Positions 10,547 through 17,762 of a stretch of 33,070 bases of DNA are shown here, piece after piece (position 1 is the stretch's first letter; every line of letters starts with the position of its first letter). The notes below the pieces were generated by a model that saw only the letters and a program-made list of their open reading frames with translations, did no database searches and was not told the origin of the DNA. Source of the DNA: Gammaproteobacteria bacterium. GTDB lineage: Bacteria > Pseudomonadota > Gammaproteobacteria > JAKEHO01. Position numbers and translations under genes: made by a program. The DNA lies in assembly GCA_027296625.1 (NCBI GenBank), contig JAPUIX010000129.1, forward strand, positions 1-33,070, in the 5' to 3' direction.

Positions 10547-10660
10547 AAGGGAAGATGATGCCAGATAAGGCCGATATACGGAATCTTGGGGAAGTCCGCA
10601 CGGTCTGATGCCCTCCGAGTATAACCTTCACAAGTGTCCGAAATCGCGCTCGGTGCGGTT

Positions 10661-10666
10661 TATAAT
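10661..10666 (+). promoter_or_regulatory. Candidate -10 element upstream of amgK-murU
   Basis: A perfect TATAAT lies 57 bp upstream of the amgK ATG in the divergent intergenic region. No good -35 is seen 16-18 bp upstream, so the promoter call rests on the -10 and its position; an activator may be needed. The element also argues that amgK starts at 10724 rather than at the open-frame start 10634, which lies upstream of the -10. Confidence 0.45.
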
Positions 10667-10723
10667 GGGACAGCCAAAACTTTATGCACACGGGCGATTT
10701 GGATCACTACCTCAGATTGTTAC

Positions 10724-11713
10724 ATGTCGCAACGCCTCGATGAGATTGCAAGCTGGCTTCGCGAAGACATTCGCATCGCCGCTTTCGATATCAATCCCGC
10801 ATCGGAAGATGCAAGTTTTCGGCGCTACTTCCGCGTTACCTTCGATGGACAGACGCGCATCGTCATGGATGCACCGCCGGATAAGGAAGACTGTGGGCCT
10901 TTCCTGGATGTGGCAAGGAAGCTCCGCGAATGCGGCCTAAATGTGCCCCACGTGCTTGCAACGGATCGATCCCGCGGATTTCTACTGCTCACCGATCTCG
11001 GTACAGAGCTGTACCTCAATGCACTATTTCCAAGCAATGTGGCGGAACTCTATGGCGATGCCCTAGACGCCCTTTTGATTATGCAGTCGAAGGCCAAGAC
11101 GAACAGCTTAGCCCCCTACGATAAGACACTGCTACACGAGGAAATGGAATTGTTTCGCCAGTGGTTAGTACAAAAGCACCTCAACATCTCGCTGAGAGAA
11201 GACGAAAACAAGATGTTGGACAGGACCTTTTCCCTTCTTGCAGAGTCGGCATTAGCCCAGCCTACCGTATTCGTACACAGGGATTATCACTCTCGCAACC
11301 TGCTCCACACATCTCACAACAATCCCGGAATAGTTGACTTTCAAGATGCCGTAGTTGGTCCGGTCACCTATGATCTGATCTCCCTTCTGAAGGACTGCTA
11401 CATTGCCTGGCCAGCACACCAGGTGAAGGCTTGGATCTTGGAGTATCACACGAGGGCCCTGGCAGCCGGCATCATATCACTTCGCGATCAGAGTGAATTC
11501 ATGCGGTGGGTTGATCTGATGGGTATCCAGCGCCATCTCAAGGCAAGTGGGATTTTTGCCCGACTGTGTCACCGTGACGGTAAATGCGGCTTTCTCGACG
11601 ATGTTCCTCGAACACTTGGGTATGTGCTCGAGGCATCCCAGCGCTTTGCAGAACTGGCAGGGCTGCACGAATTGGTCGCACAGCGAATTATGCCGAGGCT
11701 AGATACAGTCTGA
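10724..11713 (+). CDS. amgK: N-acetylmuramate/N-acetylglucosamine anomeric kinase
   Basis: AmgK phosphorylates MurNAc (and GlcNAc) at the anomeric carbon, a step of the peptidoglycan recycling route known from Pseudomonas that bypasses de novo UDP-MurNAc synthesis. From the ATG at 10724 the protein has 329 residues of the aminoglycoside-phosphotransferase fold: EDASFRRYFRV near the N-terminus, the catalytic loop VFVHRDYHSRNLL and the metal site GIVDFQDAVVGPVTYDL. The frame is open back to 10634, but MSQRLDEIASWLRE is the family-like start. The murU gene begins 5 bp after the stop, and this pairing makes the assignment firm over a generic APH-like kinase. Confidence 0.93.
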   Translation: MSQRLDEIASWLREDIRIAAFDINPASEDASFRRYFRVTFDGQTRIVMDAPPDKEDCGPFLDVARKLRECGLNVPHVLATDRSRGFLLLTDLGTELYLNALFPSNVAELYGDALDALLIMQSKAKTNSLAPYDKTLLHEEMELFRQWLVQKHLNISLREDENKMLDRTFSLLAESALAQPTVFVHRDYHSRNLLHTSHNNPGIVDFQDAVVGPVTYDLISLLKDCYIAWPAHQVKAWILEYHTRALAAGIISLRDQSEFMRWVDLMGIQRHLKASGIFARLCHRDGKCGFLDDVPRTLGYVLEASQRFAELAGLHELVAQRIMPRLDTV

Positions 11714-11718
11714 TCGCA

Positions 11719-12390
11719 GTGAAGGCAATGATTCTAGCGGCAGGTTGGGGCACGCGTATGCGTCCGCTGAGCAATGACACCCCAAAACCGCTAATCAAAA
11801 TCGCTGGAAAGGAATTAATCAAATACCACATTGAGCATCTGGTCAAAGCAGGAATTACAGATATTGTCATCAATCACGCCAAGTTTCGGGATCAGATAGA
11901 ACAAATGCTAGGGGACGGTCGGGCCTACGGTGCAGCGATTCATTATTCAGCCGAAGGCGAGCAGCCCCTTGAGACCGGTGGTGGGATCTTCAAAGCGCTG
12001 CCGTTGCTGGGTGATGGTCCTTTCATCGTAGTAAACAGCGACATCTGGTGTGACTATCCGCTGTCTAAGCTTCCAGACAAGTTCAATGGCCATGCCTATC
12101 TGGTACTCGTTGACAACCCGGACCATCACCCCAAAGGCGATTTTGCCCTCGAGGGTGGCCGCGTCCTTGCTGAAGGGCCGTCCATGCTGACGTTTAGCGG
12201 AATCGGCGTTTATCGTCCTGAACTCTTTGCAGATTGCCATCCGGGGACGTTTACTCTCGCCCCCGTGCTGCGTATTGCGATGGCCAACGGTCTTGTAACC
12301 GGGAAACATTACCAAGGATTGTGGGCAGACGTGGGAACGCCTGAGCGGCTCCATCAAATTCAAGAATTGGCGGCTGGTCAAAATAAGTAA
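11719..12390 (+). CDS. murU: N-acetylmuramate alpha-1-phosphate uridylyltransferase
   Basis: MurU joins MurNAc-1-P and UTP to give UDP-MurNAc, completing the recycling branch begun by AmgK. The nucleotidyltransferase signature is ILAAGWGTRMRPLSNDTPKP at the N-terminus, with ETGGGIFKAL and the metal aspartate in VVNSDIWCDY further on, and GLWADVGTPERL near the C-terminus. The GTG at 11719 gives the family N-terminus (M)KAMILAAG and 223 residues; the ATG at 11728 is the alternative. The longest open frame starts at 11584 inside amgK and is rejected. The phosphatase MupP, which acts before AmgK, is not in the window. Confidence 0.93.
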   Translation: MKAMILAAGWGTRMRPLSNDTPKPLIKIAGKELIKYHIEHLVKAGITDIVINHAKFRDQIEQMLGDGRAYGAAIHYSAEGEQPLETGGGIFKALPLLGDGPFIVVNSDIWCDYPLSKLPDKFNGHAYLVLVDNPDHHPKGDFALEGGRVLAEGPSMLTFSGIGVYRPELFADCHPGTFTLAPVLRIAMANGLVTGKHYQGLWADVGTPERLHQIQELAAGQNK

Positions 12391-12505: not shown

Positions 12506-13921
12506 GTGGGCCAGGAAATCCGCACAAGCGAATTCTCAAACCATGACTTCCGCACGTTTAGTAACCGCCTGCGGGAAGAAACGGATCTATTGCTCGAATA
12601 CTTTCACCAGCACCGCCTAAGTGACAACAGTGGAGTCGGTGGGTTTGAACTGGAGGCTTGGCTCGTCGACGAGAATGCCGCCCCGGCACCCATCAACGAA
12701 AAGTACCTTAAATATCTTAATGCATCCTTAGTTGTTCCCGAACTCGCTTGCTTTAACGTAGAAATCAATAGCAGTCCTCGGCCGCTTCGGGGTGACGCAT
12801 TGCAGCGCATGGCAGCGGAACTAGCTAAAACGTGGCAGGACTGTCGCAGCATCGCTGCAACTATGAATGCCGATTTAGAGATGATTGGTATTTTACCCAG
12901 CTTGCGGCAAGAACAACTCAGCTTAGAAAACATGTCCCTAGTGACACGCTATCGCGCGCTTAATGAACAGATTCTTCGAATGCGCCATGGGCGTCCACTG
13001 CAGCTAGATATTCAAGGCAAGGAGCGCCTGTACACTACGCATAACGATGTTATGTTAGAAGCAGCTTGCACATCACTCCAGATCCACCTGCAAGTCTCAC
13101 CGGCCAATGCTACCCGTATGTACAACGCTGCGATCATCGCATCCGCGCCCATGGTTGCCGCCTGTGCTAACTCACCGTACCTTTTTGGTCGAGAACTTTG
13201 GGATGAAACACGCATCCCGCTATTTGAACAAGCGGTGGAGATTGGCAGCGAGAGCGACAAACGGGTGACTTTCGGTAACGGTTACATCCGTGGCTCGCTA
13301 GTGACATGCTTCGAAGAAAACCTCGCGCGCTATCCTGTGTTACTGCCCATGACTATGGATGATGACCCATCCCGCTTCAGGCACGTCAGATTGCACAACG
13401 GCACGATCTGGCGATGGAATCGACCACTCATTGGTTTTGACCCGGACGGAACCGCACATCTGCGAATCGAACACCGTGTCGTGCCGGCTGGGCCCAGTGT
13501 GATCGACAGCATTGCTAATGCAGCAATGTATTTCGGCTTAACTCATGCTCTCGGTAGCCTTGCCAATCCACCTGAAACTCAGCTTGAATTCACGATCGCG
13601 CGCTCTAACTTTTATACAGCAGCGCGCGATGGCTTGCGAGCAAAGATCCAGTGGCTCGGCCACGGACGCATACTGATCCAGACACTGTTGATTGAACATC
13701 TTTTACCCCTAGCTCGACAGGGGCTTGAAAAATTAGAGATTGACCGCACTGATATCGACACCTTCATGGGCATCATCGAGGAGAGGGTTCGCACCACACA
13801 GAATGGAGCCGAATGGCAGCGCCGCTGGGTGGCGCGGAATGGAAATGACATGAATGCCATGAACAGAGCCTATTTGGAACAACAAAAAAGCGGCGCTCCC
13901 GCGCACGAATGGGACTATTAG
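12506..13921 (+). CDS. GCS2-family carboxylate-amine ligase (glutamate-cysteine ligase-like), substrate unknown
   Basis: Members of this superfamily form an amide bond between a carboxylate, often the gamma-carboxylate of glutamate, and an amine at the cost of ATP. The 471 residues carry the superfamily marks: GGFELEAWLVD (45-55) and FNVEINSSP (83-91) for metal and substrate binding, SLQIHLQ (190-196), and RIEHRVVPAGPS in the second half. It may be a GshA-type enzyme, but it differs from the enterobacterial GshA family and is not a clear match to the plant/alphaproteobacterial type. The start is a GTG without a visible ribosome binding site. The M14 deacylase gene begins at the very next base after the stop, so the two are probably made together and may act on the same amide. 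Confidence 0.8.
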   Translation: MGQEIRTSEFSNHDFRTFSNRLREETDLLLEYFHQHRLSDNSGVGGFELEAWLVDENAAPAPINEKYLKYLNASLVVPELACFNVEINSSPRPLRGDALQRMAAELAKTWQDCRSIAATMNADLEMIGILPSLRQEQLSLENMSLVTRYRALNEQILRMRHGRPLQLDIQGKERLYTTHNDVMLEAACTSLQIHLQVSPANATRMYNAAIIASAPMVAACANSPYLFGRELWDETRIPLFEQAVEIGSESDKRVTFGNGYIRGSLVTCFEENLARYPVLLPMTMDDDPSRFRHVRLHNGTIWRWNRPLIGFDPDGTAHLRIEHRVVPAGPSVIDSIANAAMYFGLTHALGSLANPPETQLEFTIARSNFYTAARDGLRAKIQWLGHGRILIQTLLIEHLLPLARQGLEKLEIDRTDIDTFMGIIEERVRTTQNGAEWQRRWVARNGNDMNAMNRAYLEQQKSGAPAHEWDY

Positions 13922-14917
13922 ATGCTAAGTATTTTGGAATCCTTGCCAGATGGCTTACTCGACCTGCCTGCGACCGAACTCTATACCGTCTTACCCGGGC
14001 CGACACTCATTCACCTACCCGGCCGGCGTGAGCCAGCTCTGTTTGTCGCCATTCTTCTGCACGGCAACGAAGTGACCGGTTGGGAGGTGATGCGAACGTT
14101 GTTGCGAAGATATCAAAACCAAGAGCTCCCCCGGCGATTATCCCTGTTAATTGGCAATGTTGCCGCGGCACGGCATCGTCGGCGACGACTGGAACAGCAA
14201 CCGGACTACAACCGAATCTGGAGCGGCGGCGACACACCGGAGCACGCAGCGATGCGGCAGGTCCTAGAAACTATGCGACGGCGCGGTGTCTTTGCCAGCA
14301 TTGACGTCCACAACAACGCCGGGATAAACCCATACTATGCCTGTGTAAACCAGGTAGAGCACCGCTTCTTGCAACTGGCGAGACGATTTTCACCCACGAT
14401 CGTGTATTTCACCCGTCCGGAAGGCGTGCAAAGCTTGGCGTTCGCGGAACTCTGCCCATCAGTCGTCCTCGAATGTGGTCAGCCTGGTGATCAAGCGGGT
14501 GTGAGTCGGGCCATTGAACATTTAGATGGGTGCTTGAAGCTGGCCGAAATTCCGAGCGAGCCTGTTTCAGCCAACGACATCGATGTATTTCACACCATTG
14601 CTGTCGTAAAGATCCCAAAAGAGCGGAGCTTTGGATTTGGCCATGGGGAATGGGATATTCAGTTTGCCGAACAGATCGATCGCTTCAATTTTCGTGACGT
14701 GCCGTTGGGCACTGAGCTCGCATCGATCCGATCCGAATCAAACTCAATTCTGGATGTAAAGGAAGCCTCGGGACGGGACGCATTAGACCGGTTTTTCGCG
14801 ATCGAAAACAACACACTAAGGGCGGCTGCCCCACTGATCCCTTCGATGCTGTCGACCAATGTGGACCTGATCCGCCAGGATTGCCTCTGTTACCTCATGG
14901 AGCGCTACCCGCTCTAA
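13922..14917 (+). CDS. Succinylglutamate desuccinylase/aspartoacylase-family (M14) zinc hydrolase
   Basis: A zinc hydrolase of the AstE/AspA branch of the M14 carboxypeptidase fold, enzymes that remove acyl groups from acyl-amino acids. Zinc ligands are His47 and Glu50 in LLHGNEVTGWE and His130 in SIDVHNN. DYNRIW (95-100) is the substrate-binding strip and Glu184 in VVLECGQPGD is the likely catalytic base. The 331-residue length includes the C-terminal beta domain. It is not in an arginine-degradation (ast) context, so true succinylglutamate activity is unlikely. The ATG abuts the stop of the GCS2 ligase with zero spacing. The substrate is unknown; the pairing suggests an amide made by the ligase, which is inference. 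Confidence 0.85.
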   Translation: MLSILESLPDGLLDLPATELYTVLPGPTLIHLPGRREPALFVAILLHGNEVTGWEVMRTLLRRYQNQELPRRLSLLIGNVAAARHRRRRLEQQPDYNRIWSGGDTPEHAAMRQVLETMRRRGVFASIDVHNNAGINPYYACVNQVEHRFLQLARRFSPTIVYFTRPEGVQSLAFAELCPSVVLECGQPGDQAGVSRAIEHLDGCLKLAEIPSEPVSANDIDVFHTIAVVKIPKERSFGFGHGEWDIQFAEQIDRFNFRDVPLGTELASIRSESNSILDVKEASGRDALDRFFAIENNTLRAAAPLIPSMLSTNVDLIRQDCLCYLMERYPL

Positions 14918-15024: not shown

Positions 15025-15369
15025 AGCCTCGCTGACACCGGGGACTCGCCGAAAGAGCAGGATTTTACATCCGTATCGTGACATCGCCAGGCGCACTGAG
15101 ATCTAGAACGGACAACCGCGCTGAGACCTGTGAGGGGGACGGCACATACGCCCTGGGTGCCTCCTTAGCAGGGGACACGCGCTAGTGGCCTTATATGGCC
15201 ACTTGCCTGCCGCGTTCCGCCCATCAGGCCCAACCCAACAGCAAACCTACCTCAGATCTGAATACCGACCTGATGACCTTGTGACAGTGACTTCAAGGGT
15301 TTTATGTTGCGATGCAGCATAAGCCTATGGTATACAAGGCACGAGCCAATAGCACGCGTCATGCGTTAG
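15025..15369 (+). other. Long candidate 5' leader with inverted repeats, no gene seen
   Basis: Between the promoter and the ribosome binding site of the mltF-like gene lie about 345 bp without a convincing coding frame. Inverted repeats are dense: GGCAC/GTGCC at 15141-15161, AGTGGCC/GGCCACT at 15184-15203 and CATCAGG/CCTGATG at 15222-15275, the last enclosing the perfect palindrome TCAGATCTGA (15252-15261). A loose direct repeat occurs at 15093-15104 and 15118-15129 (10 of 12 bases). I recognise no known riboswitch. The region may be a structured leader, a small RNA, or eroded sequence. Confidence 0.4.
15184..15203. repeat. Perfect 7-bp inverted repeat (AGTGGCC/GGCCACT)
   Basis: The arms surround the six bases TTATAT, and the stem extends to ten pairs with one mismatch (15181-15206). 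There is no T-tract after it, so it is more like an operator or leader hairpin than a terminator. Confidence 0.6.
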
Positions 15370-15375
15370 AAGGAG
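15370..15375 (+). promoter_or_regulatory. Ribosome binding site deciding the mltF-like start
   Basis: AAGGAG ends eight bases before the ATG at 15384. It favours this ATG over the open-frame start at 15312, which has no such site. Confidence 0.75.
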
Positions 15376-15383
15376 ATGCGCTG

Positions 15384-17762
15384 ATGCCTAACGAACGGGG
15401 GCTTAAGATGTCGAATTGCTATGCATTGCGGGTCGAAGCACGTCTTCCGATAGGGCTTAGGCAGTTGAGTCACTGGATCATGCAGTCCAAGCCCGGGGCC
15501 ATTGCGACGGTACATAATCAAACCGCGATGCTCGCCTACGGGGCGTTCGCGCTCATCGTAGAGCTTGTCGTCTACGCTTGCTTATGGCCCGCACCGCAGT
15601 TTATCGTTCCAGGCCACCGGACACCCGATCTCAGCACGCCAGGCCACTATACAGTAGAGGGCCGCCGATCACCTTTTGCAGACCATCTCACGGCACTCTA
15701 TTATCGAACGACGCGCATGCGCGGGTCGCCTCCTTGGCTATATCTGGAAACTGGCGACTTGGCCTCCCTAAAGCAACGAGGAAAGCTCCGGATACTCGCC
15801 GTGCGGGAGCATAACGTGAAATATCCCGCCAACAGCACTCGCTTGGTCGACGTGGAACAACAGATGATTGCTGAATTCGCTAATGATATCGGCGTGGAGC
15901 CGGTTTGGGTCTATGTGGATAAGCCCGCCGATCTGGTGCGCTTTTTGGCACTTGGGAAAGGTGATCTGATTGCCTACACCGCCCCACTTTCGCCAACGTC
16001 AACCCCAGAAATCGCGTATACGTTACCAATAGCCCTCACGCGCTATCAGTTAGTAGCCCATGCGGATGATGATACGATTCATGGGCCCACTGATCTCGCC
16101 GGCAGGCGTGTCGCTCTAAAAAGGGTGTCGCCAGCCTGGGGCGTGCTTCAACAACTCAAGACACAATTTCCGACGATCGAAATTCAAACAGTCCCCGATT
16201 ACCTCAGCGAGGAAACAATCCTTGAAAGAGTCGCATCGGGCCAATATGACGCAATCGTTACAGATTCCGCCAACCTAAAGACTATATCGCATACACACCT
16301 CAATATTAAAGCCGCCTTTGACCTCACAGATGATCGGCCTATTGCTTGGGCGACCCGCGTTGATGCAATCGCCCTACTTGCATCACTCAACAAATATTTG
16401 AATCAATATCAACCCGCACGACGAATTCCGGATGTTTATAAGGATGATTTACCTGCTCTGAAGCAGCGAGGTATTTTGAGAGTTATAACTCGAGAAAGTC
16501 CATTAAACTTTTTCCAATCAAAAGGGGAATTGCTTGGATTTGAGTACGATCTGGCCCGCAGATTCGCGGAGCAAAATAAACTTCGCCTTGAGATGCTCGT
16601 CGCACCTACCGACGAAGCAGCATTAACCTGGCTAAGAGAAGGAAAAGGTGACATTGTGGCTGCGTCATTGGCTATTAATGATGGGCATAGCGAGGAACTC
16701 ATTTCATATTCACGTCCTTACAACTATGCAACCTATACGATCGTGAGCAATGCGAAAAAACCGCATTTGCTCGATCTTGATAGCTTATCGGGCAGCCAAC
16801 TCGTCATCCCACATCACAGCCCACTTTGGCACAAGGTTGACCGCCTAAAAAGTGAGGGAATTGCGGCAACTTTCGTTGAGGCTCCTCGGGAATTCGCCAC
16901 AAAAGAGATTGTTGAGCATGTTGCCCAAGGTAATTATGAGCTTGCGGTCGTAGACAGTCATGAACTCGCCATCGAATTAGCGTTGCGTGATGATATCAAG
17001 GCTCACTTTTCTGTTGGTGAACCAGTACCAATTAGCTGGGCGGTACGGGCTGCTAACAATAAACTGCTCGCTGCGATCAATAACTATTTCAAAAAAGAGT
17101 ACCGAGGAAAGTACTACAATTTGGCTTACCGGAAATATTTCCAAGATTCCCTCAAGACACAGCAGCACCTAAAGTTTACAACAGAGCAAGACAGACACTT
17201 GTCTCCTTACGATGACTTGGTGAGGAAATATTCAGAGAAATATAATTTCGATTGGCGCCTAATCGTAGCGCAAATGTATCAGGAAAGCCGTTTCAATCCA
17301 CACGCACGATCAAGAGCTGGCGCCGAGGGCCTGATGCAGATCTTGCCGCGAACAGCCAAGCAGTTGGGATACAGCGACGTGCAGACGCCTGAACTCGGAA
17401 TCAGCGCTGGGATTGAGTACTTGGACTGGCTTCGAGAGCGATTTGAGCGTGAGCTTGCCATTGATGACAGGACTTGGTTTGCGCTCGCCGCATATAACGC
17501 AGGTTATGGACGGGTCGAGGATGCACGACGTTTAGCACAGGAACTAGGCCTTGATCCGAATCGGTGGTTCGACAACGTAGAACGAGCACTGTATCTGTTG
17601 GGGCAGAATAAATACAAGCACAGGTCACGATTTCGCCGCTGTCGATGCGGGCAAACCGTTGCGTATGTCAGTGACATTCGTGCACGCTATCACGCCTATG
17701 TTCATCTCACGGAACCCCTTCAGCTGGCATTAACGAGTCGGCAAAACGGTCATGGGAGCTAG
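15384..17762 (+). CDS. MltF-like membrane-bound lytic murein transglycosylase with two SBP-like domains
   Basis: Lytic transglycosylases cleave the MurNAc-GlcNAc bond of peptidoglycan, leaving 1,6-anhydroMurNAc ends. From the ATG at 15384 (AAGGAG eight bases upstream) the protein has 792 residues. There is one membrane anchor at about 48-68 and a linker. Two family-3 solute-binding-like domains follow: one at about 125-346, opening LASLKQRGKLRILAV, and one at about 355-588, opening LPALKQRGILRVITR. The SLT domain is at about 609-741 with catalytic Glu634 in YQESRFNPHARS, then GLMQILPRTAKQLG and ALAAYNAGYGRVEDAR. E. coli MltF has one such regulatory domain and about 518 residues; the similar openings suggest internal duplication. 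A short Arg/Cys-rich tail follows the SLT domain. It is expressed toward queC, in convergent orientation. Confidence 0.9.
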   Translation: MPNERGLKMSNCYALRVEARLPIGLRQLSHWIMQSKPGAIATVHNQTAMLAYGAFALIVELVVYACLWPAPQFIVPGHRTPDLSTPGHYTVEGRRSPFADHLTALYYRTTRMRGSPPWLYLETGDLASLKQRGKLRILAVREHNVKYPANSTRLVDVEQQMIAEFANDIGVEPVWVYVDKPADLVRFLALGKGDLIAYTAPLSPTSTPEIAYTLPIALTRYQLVAHADDDTIHGPTDLAGRRVALKRVSPAWGVLQQLKTQFPTIEIQTVPDYLSEETILERVASGQYDAIVTDSANLKTISHTHLNIKAAFDLTDDRPIAWATRVDAIALLASLNKYLNQYQPARRIPDVYKDDLPALKQRGILRVITRESPLNFFQSKGELLGFEYDLARRFAEQNKLRLEMLVAPTDEAALTWLREGKGDIVAASLAINDGHSEELISYSRPYNYATYTIVSNAKKPHLLDLDSLSGSQLVIPHHSPLWHKVDRLKSEGIAATFVEAPREFATKEIVEHVAQGNYELAVVDSHELAIELALRDDIKAHFSVGEPVPISWAVRAANNKLLAAINNYFKKEYRGKYYNLAYRKYFQDSLKTQQHLKFTTEQDRHLSPYDDLVRKYSEKYNFDWRLIVAQMYQESRFNPHARSRAGAEGLMQILPRTAKQLGYSDVQTPELGISAGIEYLDWLRERFERELAIDDRTWFALAAYNAGYGRVEDARRLAQELGLDPNRWFDNVERALYLLGQNKYKHRSRFRRCRCGQTVAYVSDIRARYHAYVHLTEPLQLALTSRQNGHGS

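Follow-up and report, generated by a model that had tools for sequence, protein, structure and literature searches.

A conserved gene pair for a divergent carboxylate-amine ligase and an AstE-type amidohydrolase: a possible make-and-break system in Pseudomonadota

Among the closest described systems is the glutamylation of ribosomal protein S6 by RimK. Passages of PMC12239564, citing Little et al. 2025, report that RimB, which is co-transcribed with RimK, takes off the glutamates that RimK adds, thereby reversing its action. Much as is proposed for the gene pair considered here, a glutamate ligase has a hydrolase beside it; however, RimK is an ATP-grasp enzyme and RimB a retropepsin-like protease, whereas our candidate ligase is assigned to the GCS2 superfamily. 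Both members of the pair also have described relatives. YbdK of Escherichia coli and its family share motifs with the ligase that align over 331 columns, but the ligase is some 100 residues longer, forms its own clade, scores below the YbdK cut-offs and is paired with a hydrolase. True glutamate-cysteine ligases (GshA; PF04262, PF08886 and TIGR01436) catalyse the same class of reaction, and plant-type GshA falls in the same superfamily; these enzymes are present separately in the ligase-bearing genomes, and the ligase has a clade of its own. With AstE and aspartoacylase (PF24827), the hydrolase has in common the zinc ligands, the general base and an R..DxNR stretch, but it falls below the AstE equivalog cut-off, has no arginine pathway nearby and adjoins an amide ligase.

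No description of the ligase–hydrolase pair was found in the titles and abstracts of the open-licence literature; an earlier one is possible in Iyer et al. 2009, which is reportedly a paper on amidoligases. According to passages of PMC5005798, the genes that a chytrid acquired horizontally include those for a 'succinylglutamate desuccinylase' and for a 'carboxylate-amine ligase', which may or may not correspond to the pair. The pair goes unmentioned in the AmgK–MurU passages of two cell-wall recycling papers (PMC13046382, PMC13041923) and in passages on a metallopeptidase-like protein from a third paper (PMC4000134).

The stretch of DNA analysed here (the window) is 33,070 nt long and comprises the whole of contig C129 from a gammaproteobacterial genome of 2.42 Mb that is 97.7% complete. 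The pair lies in the order AmgK-like, MurU, ligase, hydrolase, MltF-like (Table 1). The first-pass annotation, made from the sequence letters, had placed the ligase stop codon immediately before the hydrolase ATG, and the junction confirms this: a TAG at 13919–13921 is followed by ATG at 13922, with 0 nt between them. The N-terminus of the ligase, MGQEI, is conserved, in support of its predicted GTG start. Homology of the AmgK-like protein begins near residue 30, so its true start is probably further in. The MltF-like protein is 816 aa long, carries SLT and SBP_bac_3 domains and an additional N-terminal solute-binding-like region (a weak Phosphonate-bd match), and exceeds the MltF model in length; the protein is present in a sister species too (L033). 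Promoter and terminator scans returned sites no more numerous than in shuffles. Among the genes beside the pair (AmgK-like, MurU and lytic transglycosylase-like), no arginine-degradation context was seen, as the first reading had also held.

Table 1. Coordinates of the candidate pair and its context genes in the window
Feature	Position	Strand	Description
Candidate ligase	12506..13921	+	471 aa, GTG start; predicted divergent GCS2-superfamily ATP-dependent carboxylate-amine ligase
Candidate zinc hydrolase	13922..14917	+	331 aa, ATG start; predicted AstE/AspA-type (M14-like) N-acyl-amino-acid amidohydrolase; PF24827 over cut-off
MurU-type MurNAc-1-phosphate uridylyltransferase	11716..12390	+	303.7 bits against an NCBIfam cut-off of 250; context gene
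AmgK-like sugar kinase	10634..11713	+	302.7 bits (cut-off 550); context gene
MltF-like lytic transglycosylase	15312..17762	+	Extra N-terminal solute-binding-like region; context gene

The pairing is conserved well beyond this genome. In a main sample of 94 relatives' genomes, which included its own, the ligase was found in 34 and strong hydrolase matches (profile match at E ≤ 1e-100) in 33. Both were present in 32 genomes, the ligase alone in two (G001, with a decayed hydrolase, and G068), the hydrolase alone in one (G093, where it lies beside MurU) and neither in 59, giving a Fisher p of 1.4e-21, although genomes this closely linked by descent cannot count as wholly independent; when limited to genomes of at least 2.8 Mb, the association still gave p = 4.8e-10. 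Thirty of the 34 genomes, one of them with a decayed copy, have the hydrolase immediately downstream of the ligase and on its strand, and in every adjacent pair the ligase gene came first. Of 30 separately coded pairs, a set that takes in the decayed copy and also L002, which comes from another collection, 27 have a spacing of −20 to +60 nt, with a median of 4. The four genomes without adjacency comprised three with the hydrolase elsewhere (G019, G006 and G064, whose copy contains one in-frame TAG) and one with none (G068). A phylum-wide sample of 398 genomes yielded 19 with the ligase; 16 of the 17 new loci, from the same class and elsewhere in the phylum, were looked at (G226 was left out), and the hydrolase was adjacent in 15. 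Conservation of the adjacency, whose absence in relatives the first-pass annotation had named as a refuting outcome, was borne out in both samples. At the remaining locus (L119), as in L064 of the main sample, the ligase is instead fused to two CBS domains. These C-terminal fusions lie at L119:7156-9111 and L064:2434-4335, and they suggest nucleotide control of the ligase in that lineage.

Two loci bear on how the two proteins relate to each other. In L060 (genome G010), a single frame of 814 aa spans the two enzymes, and PF24827 matches it at residues 512–662. Its junction contains a G run in which a one-base difference would split it into two genes with a four-base overlap, such as three other loci show; the fusion may be a sequencing slip, and because one base in this run decides, we counted it as weak support. 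The sister species G001 has kept an intact ligase (79% identity), which is under purifying selection (dN about 0.12, dS about 1.17). The hydrolase beside it (L033:3369-4000) is decayed, with stop codons, HGNE changed to RGDE and residues 102–251 missing; the G001 assembly is 87% complete, and a loss of 150 codons can hardly be a sequencing slip. The G001 ligase appears to function without the hydrolase, and an intact ligase beside a dead hydrolase would be expected if the latter were the accessory 'break' step. Four plasmid-borne ligase homologues, from actinobacteria and a haloarchaeon, also had no hydrolase nearby, and these cases, together with the sister species and G068, indicate that the ligase can work alone.

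The catalytic residues that the first-pass annotation had expected are all at the positions given: GFELE (46–50), FNVEIN (83–88) and SLQIHLQ (190–196) in the ligase, and His47, Glu50, His130 and Glu184 in the hydrolase. An alignment of 31 ligase rows showed E48, E50, E86, N88, Q192, H194, R320, E322 and R324 to be invariant, and E48, E50, E86, H194, R320 and E322 aligned with YbdK motifs in a profile–profile comparison; we take the acidic, histidine and arginine residues among them to be those that are catalytic in the GCS2 superfamily. The family assignment itself is more distant. The window ligase had no Pfam match at E 0.001 and scored 20.9 bits against the YbdK-type NCBIfam model, for which the cut-off is 371. 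PF04107 (GCS2; cut-off 21 bits) gave weak passes of 22–40 bits for six of eight ligase-type proteins, L060 and L103 falling below, and was exceeded by the ligase of 10 of the 94 genomes, the window ligase not being among these. None of 31 members passed the YbdK models TIGR02050, NF010039 and NF010040 (best E 1e-10 or weaker), and the best E of these scanned members against any GshA or YbdK model was 9e-13, well short of the curated cut-offs of at least 176 bits. Profile–profile comparison matched the ligase to the YbdK set with 97% probability (E = 5e-11, 331 columns, ~18% identity), as against 80% for RimK-linked GCS2 and 32% for plant-type GshA, all from small sets (4, 4 and 2 rows, respectively). 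The name GCS2, which the first pass had also used, thus derives from the relatives' weak PF04107 passes and the profile match to the YbdK set, and not from the window protein. In public records, homologues are labelled 'glutamate-cysteine ligase family protein'.

In an unrooted tree of 36 rows, the 26 ligase rows formed one group (94/83), separate from the YbdK, RimK-linked GCS2 and plant-type GshA groups. This comparison with true GshA enzymes, suggested at first pass, gave the ligase its own clade but left the two plant-type GshA rows on the ligase side (97/88), at a point for which the program gave warnings of meeting long branches and of a bootstrap that had not settled; the join is possibly a long-branch artefact. 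We consider the ligase to be a distinct, divergent subfamily, closest by profile to the YbdK-type ligases and with an unsettled nearest neighbour in the tree. A PDB sequence search with the ligase, both as a single sequence and as a profile, returned no matches, and AlphaFold2, given alignments only 4 and 2 rows deep, modelled the two proteins at mean pLDDT values of 35 and 43, too low to confirm the folds. A search of viral contigs returned one partial ligase homologue (L121, on an IMG/VR contig that is filed as viral and is possibly host DNA) and no hydrolase.

The ligase is also not the glutathione gene of its host. A separate classical GshA (PF04262, 563 bits; G000:C65), whose presence the first pass had left to be looked up, is encoded on another contig of the same genome, which also has gshB, and the idea that the window ligase is the organism's GshA was rejected on this ground. 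Counting PF04262, PF08886 and TIGR01436, we found an independent gshA in 33 of the 34 ligase genomes; that of G006 is the plant-type TIGR01436 enzyme, and the sole genome without a match, G038, is 81% complete. The PF08886 model works in this sample, since it gave matches in 50 of the 94 genomes.

The hydrolase is more readily placed at family level. It scored 37.2 bits against AstE_AspA (PF24827; cut-off 25), and H47, E50, R88, D95, N97, R98, H130 and E184 were invariant in an alignment of 25 rows. It aligned with solved succinylglutamate desuccinylases and aspartoacylases (1yw4, 1yw6 and 2i3c; E 1e-4 to 7e-3), and the alignment covers the zinc site together with R..DxNR. Against the AstE equivalog TIGR03242, it reached only 23.7 bits, far under the cut-off of 305.65. 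The substrate of AstE is succinyl-glutamate, and a succinyl group resembles a gamma-glutamyl group minus its amino group, so glutamyl amides are plausible substrates.

A RimK-like ATP-grasp gene had been suggested at first pass as a third gene travelling with the pair. It was absent from all 20 annotated neighbours and was rejected as a travelling partner; AmgK–MurU was the commonest neighbour instead. The hydrolase profile also gave 19 weaker AstE/AspA-type places, 17 of which lie 155–391 nt downstream of a weak PF02955 (ATP-grasp) match on the same strand. In L144 and L145, RimK scored 466.6 and 469.0 bits, above its cut-off of 331, and was followed 5–6 nt on by an AstE/AspA/DoeB-like gene, that of L144 sharing 23% identity with the window hydrolase; the 15 other RimK-type places were judged by position alone. 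The arrangement of a ligase followed by an AstE-type hydrolase recurs, and the RimK-like ligase with its AstE/AspA/DoeB-like neighbour is possibly a second make-and-break pair. By analogy alone, this arrangement and the RimK/RimB system make a make-and-break reading of the window pair more likely. Another GCS2 subfamily was encountered at L127 to L131, where the L127 member comes immediately after a RimK-like ATP-grasp gene of 484 aa and the upstream frames of L128, L130 and L131 are similar to that of L127.

The 20 annotated neighbours were mostly mutually unrelated (UvrD-like helicase, DUF350, LysR, DarP, FolD-like, AMMECR1, Memo, L,D-transpeptidase, PEP carboxykinase and a glutamyl/glutaminyl-type tRNA ligase, among others). 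No third gene was constant beside the pair across loci, and the module therefore seems to need just the two genes. At L065:7234-10206, Memo and AMMECR1 lie directly upstream of a divergent ligase–hydrolase pair and a CBS-like gene lies downstream.

We think it somewhat probable that the ligase forms an amide and that the hydrolase cleaves the same amide, the two together setting the level of one compound. The chemistry of each enzyme would follow from its family membership; the proposal that both act on one compound in opposite directions draws on the pairing, the gene order, the possible fusion and the RimK parallel. The loci that have a ligase with no hydrolase nearby, and the solitary hydrolase of G093, count against it. 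The divergent GCS2-superfamily ligase would spend ATP to join a carboxylate to an amine. The carboxylate would most likely be glutamate's gamma-carboxyl or that of a close analogue. The AstE/AspA-type zinc amidohydrolase would then cleave this amide, or a close analogue of it, and return the parts. The product would be distinct from the gamma-glutamylcysteine made for glutathione, and it might serve in storage, regulation or tagging.

The neighbouring genes raise another explanation, compatible with make-and-break, in which the pair acts on a peptidoglycan-derived compound, such as an amide of D-glutamate or of a muropeptide, beside AmgK–MurU salvage. Of the 34 ligase genomes, 17 carry MurU upstream of the ligase and on its strand; 16 of the 17 also have AmgK there (in L047, AmgK is some kilobases away), and MurU is the neighbour of the solitary hydrolase in G093. 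Over the whole sample, MurU passed its cut-off in 66 of 94 genomes, namely 32 of the 34 with the ligase and 34 of the 60 without it (p = 1.1e-4). The MltF-like gene follows the pair in its own genome and in the sister species, and in L002 the downstream genes encode a DUF882 peptidase-like protein and an L,D-transpeptidase. However, neither AmgK nor MurU was near the pair in any of the 16 phylum-wide loci, both are missing beside it in half of the relatives, and the association with MurU shrinks among larger genomes (p = 0.03 to 0.006). Haloarchaea have no peptidoglycan, and a distant ligase homologue in a haloarchaeon likewise speaks against a cell-wall substrate. Because the AmgK–MurU link is absent outside one part of the sample, we keep this explanation as a rival only and regard it as doubtful.

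Tight coupling and a possible fusion would suit sequential enzymes as well as opposing ones, and the hydrolase might instead release an N-acylated amino acid or amine, which the ligase would join to another carboxylate. It would be odd, if the hydrolase supplied the substrate, for the ligase gene always to come first and to persist where the hydrolase is dead or absent, and we find such consecutive steps unlikely. A back-up glutamate-cysteine ligase resembling YbdK, with a hydrolase that trims gamma-glutamyl peptides, would agree with the shared superfamily, the profile proximity to YbdK, the plant-type GshA rows on its side of the tree and the public name of its homologues; the near-universal second gshA, the faint matches to GshA and YbdK models and the long-branch warning on that very join render it quite improbable. 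The hydrolase might also exist for damage control, removing faulty amides made accidentally by the ligase or by another enzyme, as its dispensability in one sister species and its rarity without the ligase (1 of 60 genomes) would allow. In our judgement, a dedicated repair enzyme would have no need to keep beside a single gene across such a broad spread of bacteria, and we rate this possibility as quite unlikely too.

Under the preferred make-and-break reading, two imprecise database labels, 'glutamate-cysteine ligase family protein' and 'desuccinylase/aspartoacylase', become one testable two-gene system that is not part of glutathione synthesis. We further propose, tentatively and as a possibility that falls short of likely, an undescribed, reversible cycle of amide tagging or storage across the Pseudomonadota, in which the ligase would form some new compound of gamma-glutamyl or similar type, to be taken apart again by its own AstE-type hydrolase, with nucleotide control in the lineage where the ligase carries two CBS domains and a tie to cell-wall recycling where the pair adjoins AmgK–MurU. 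If the parallel with the RimK/AstE-type arrangement is true, a ligase paired with an AstE-type hydrolase would be a general bacterial route to reversible small amides.
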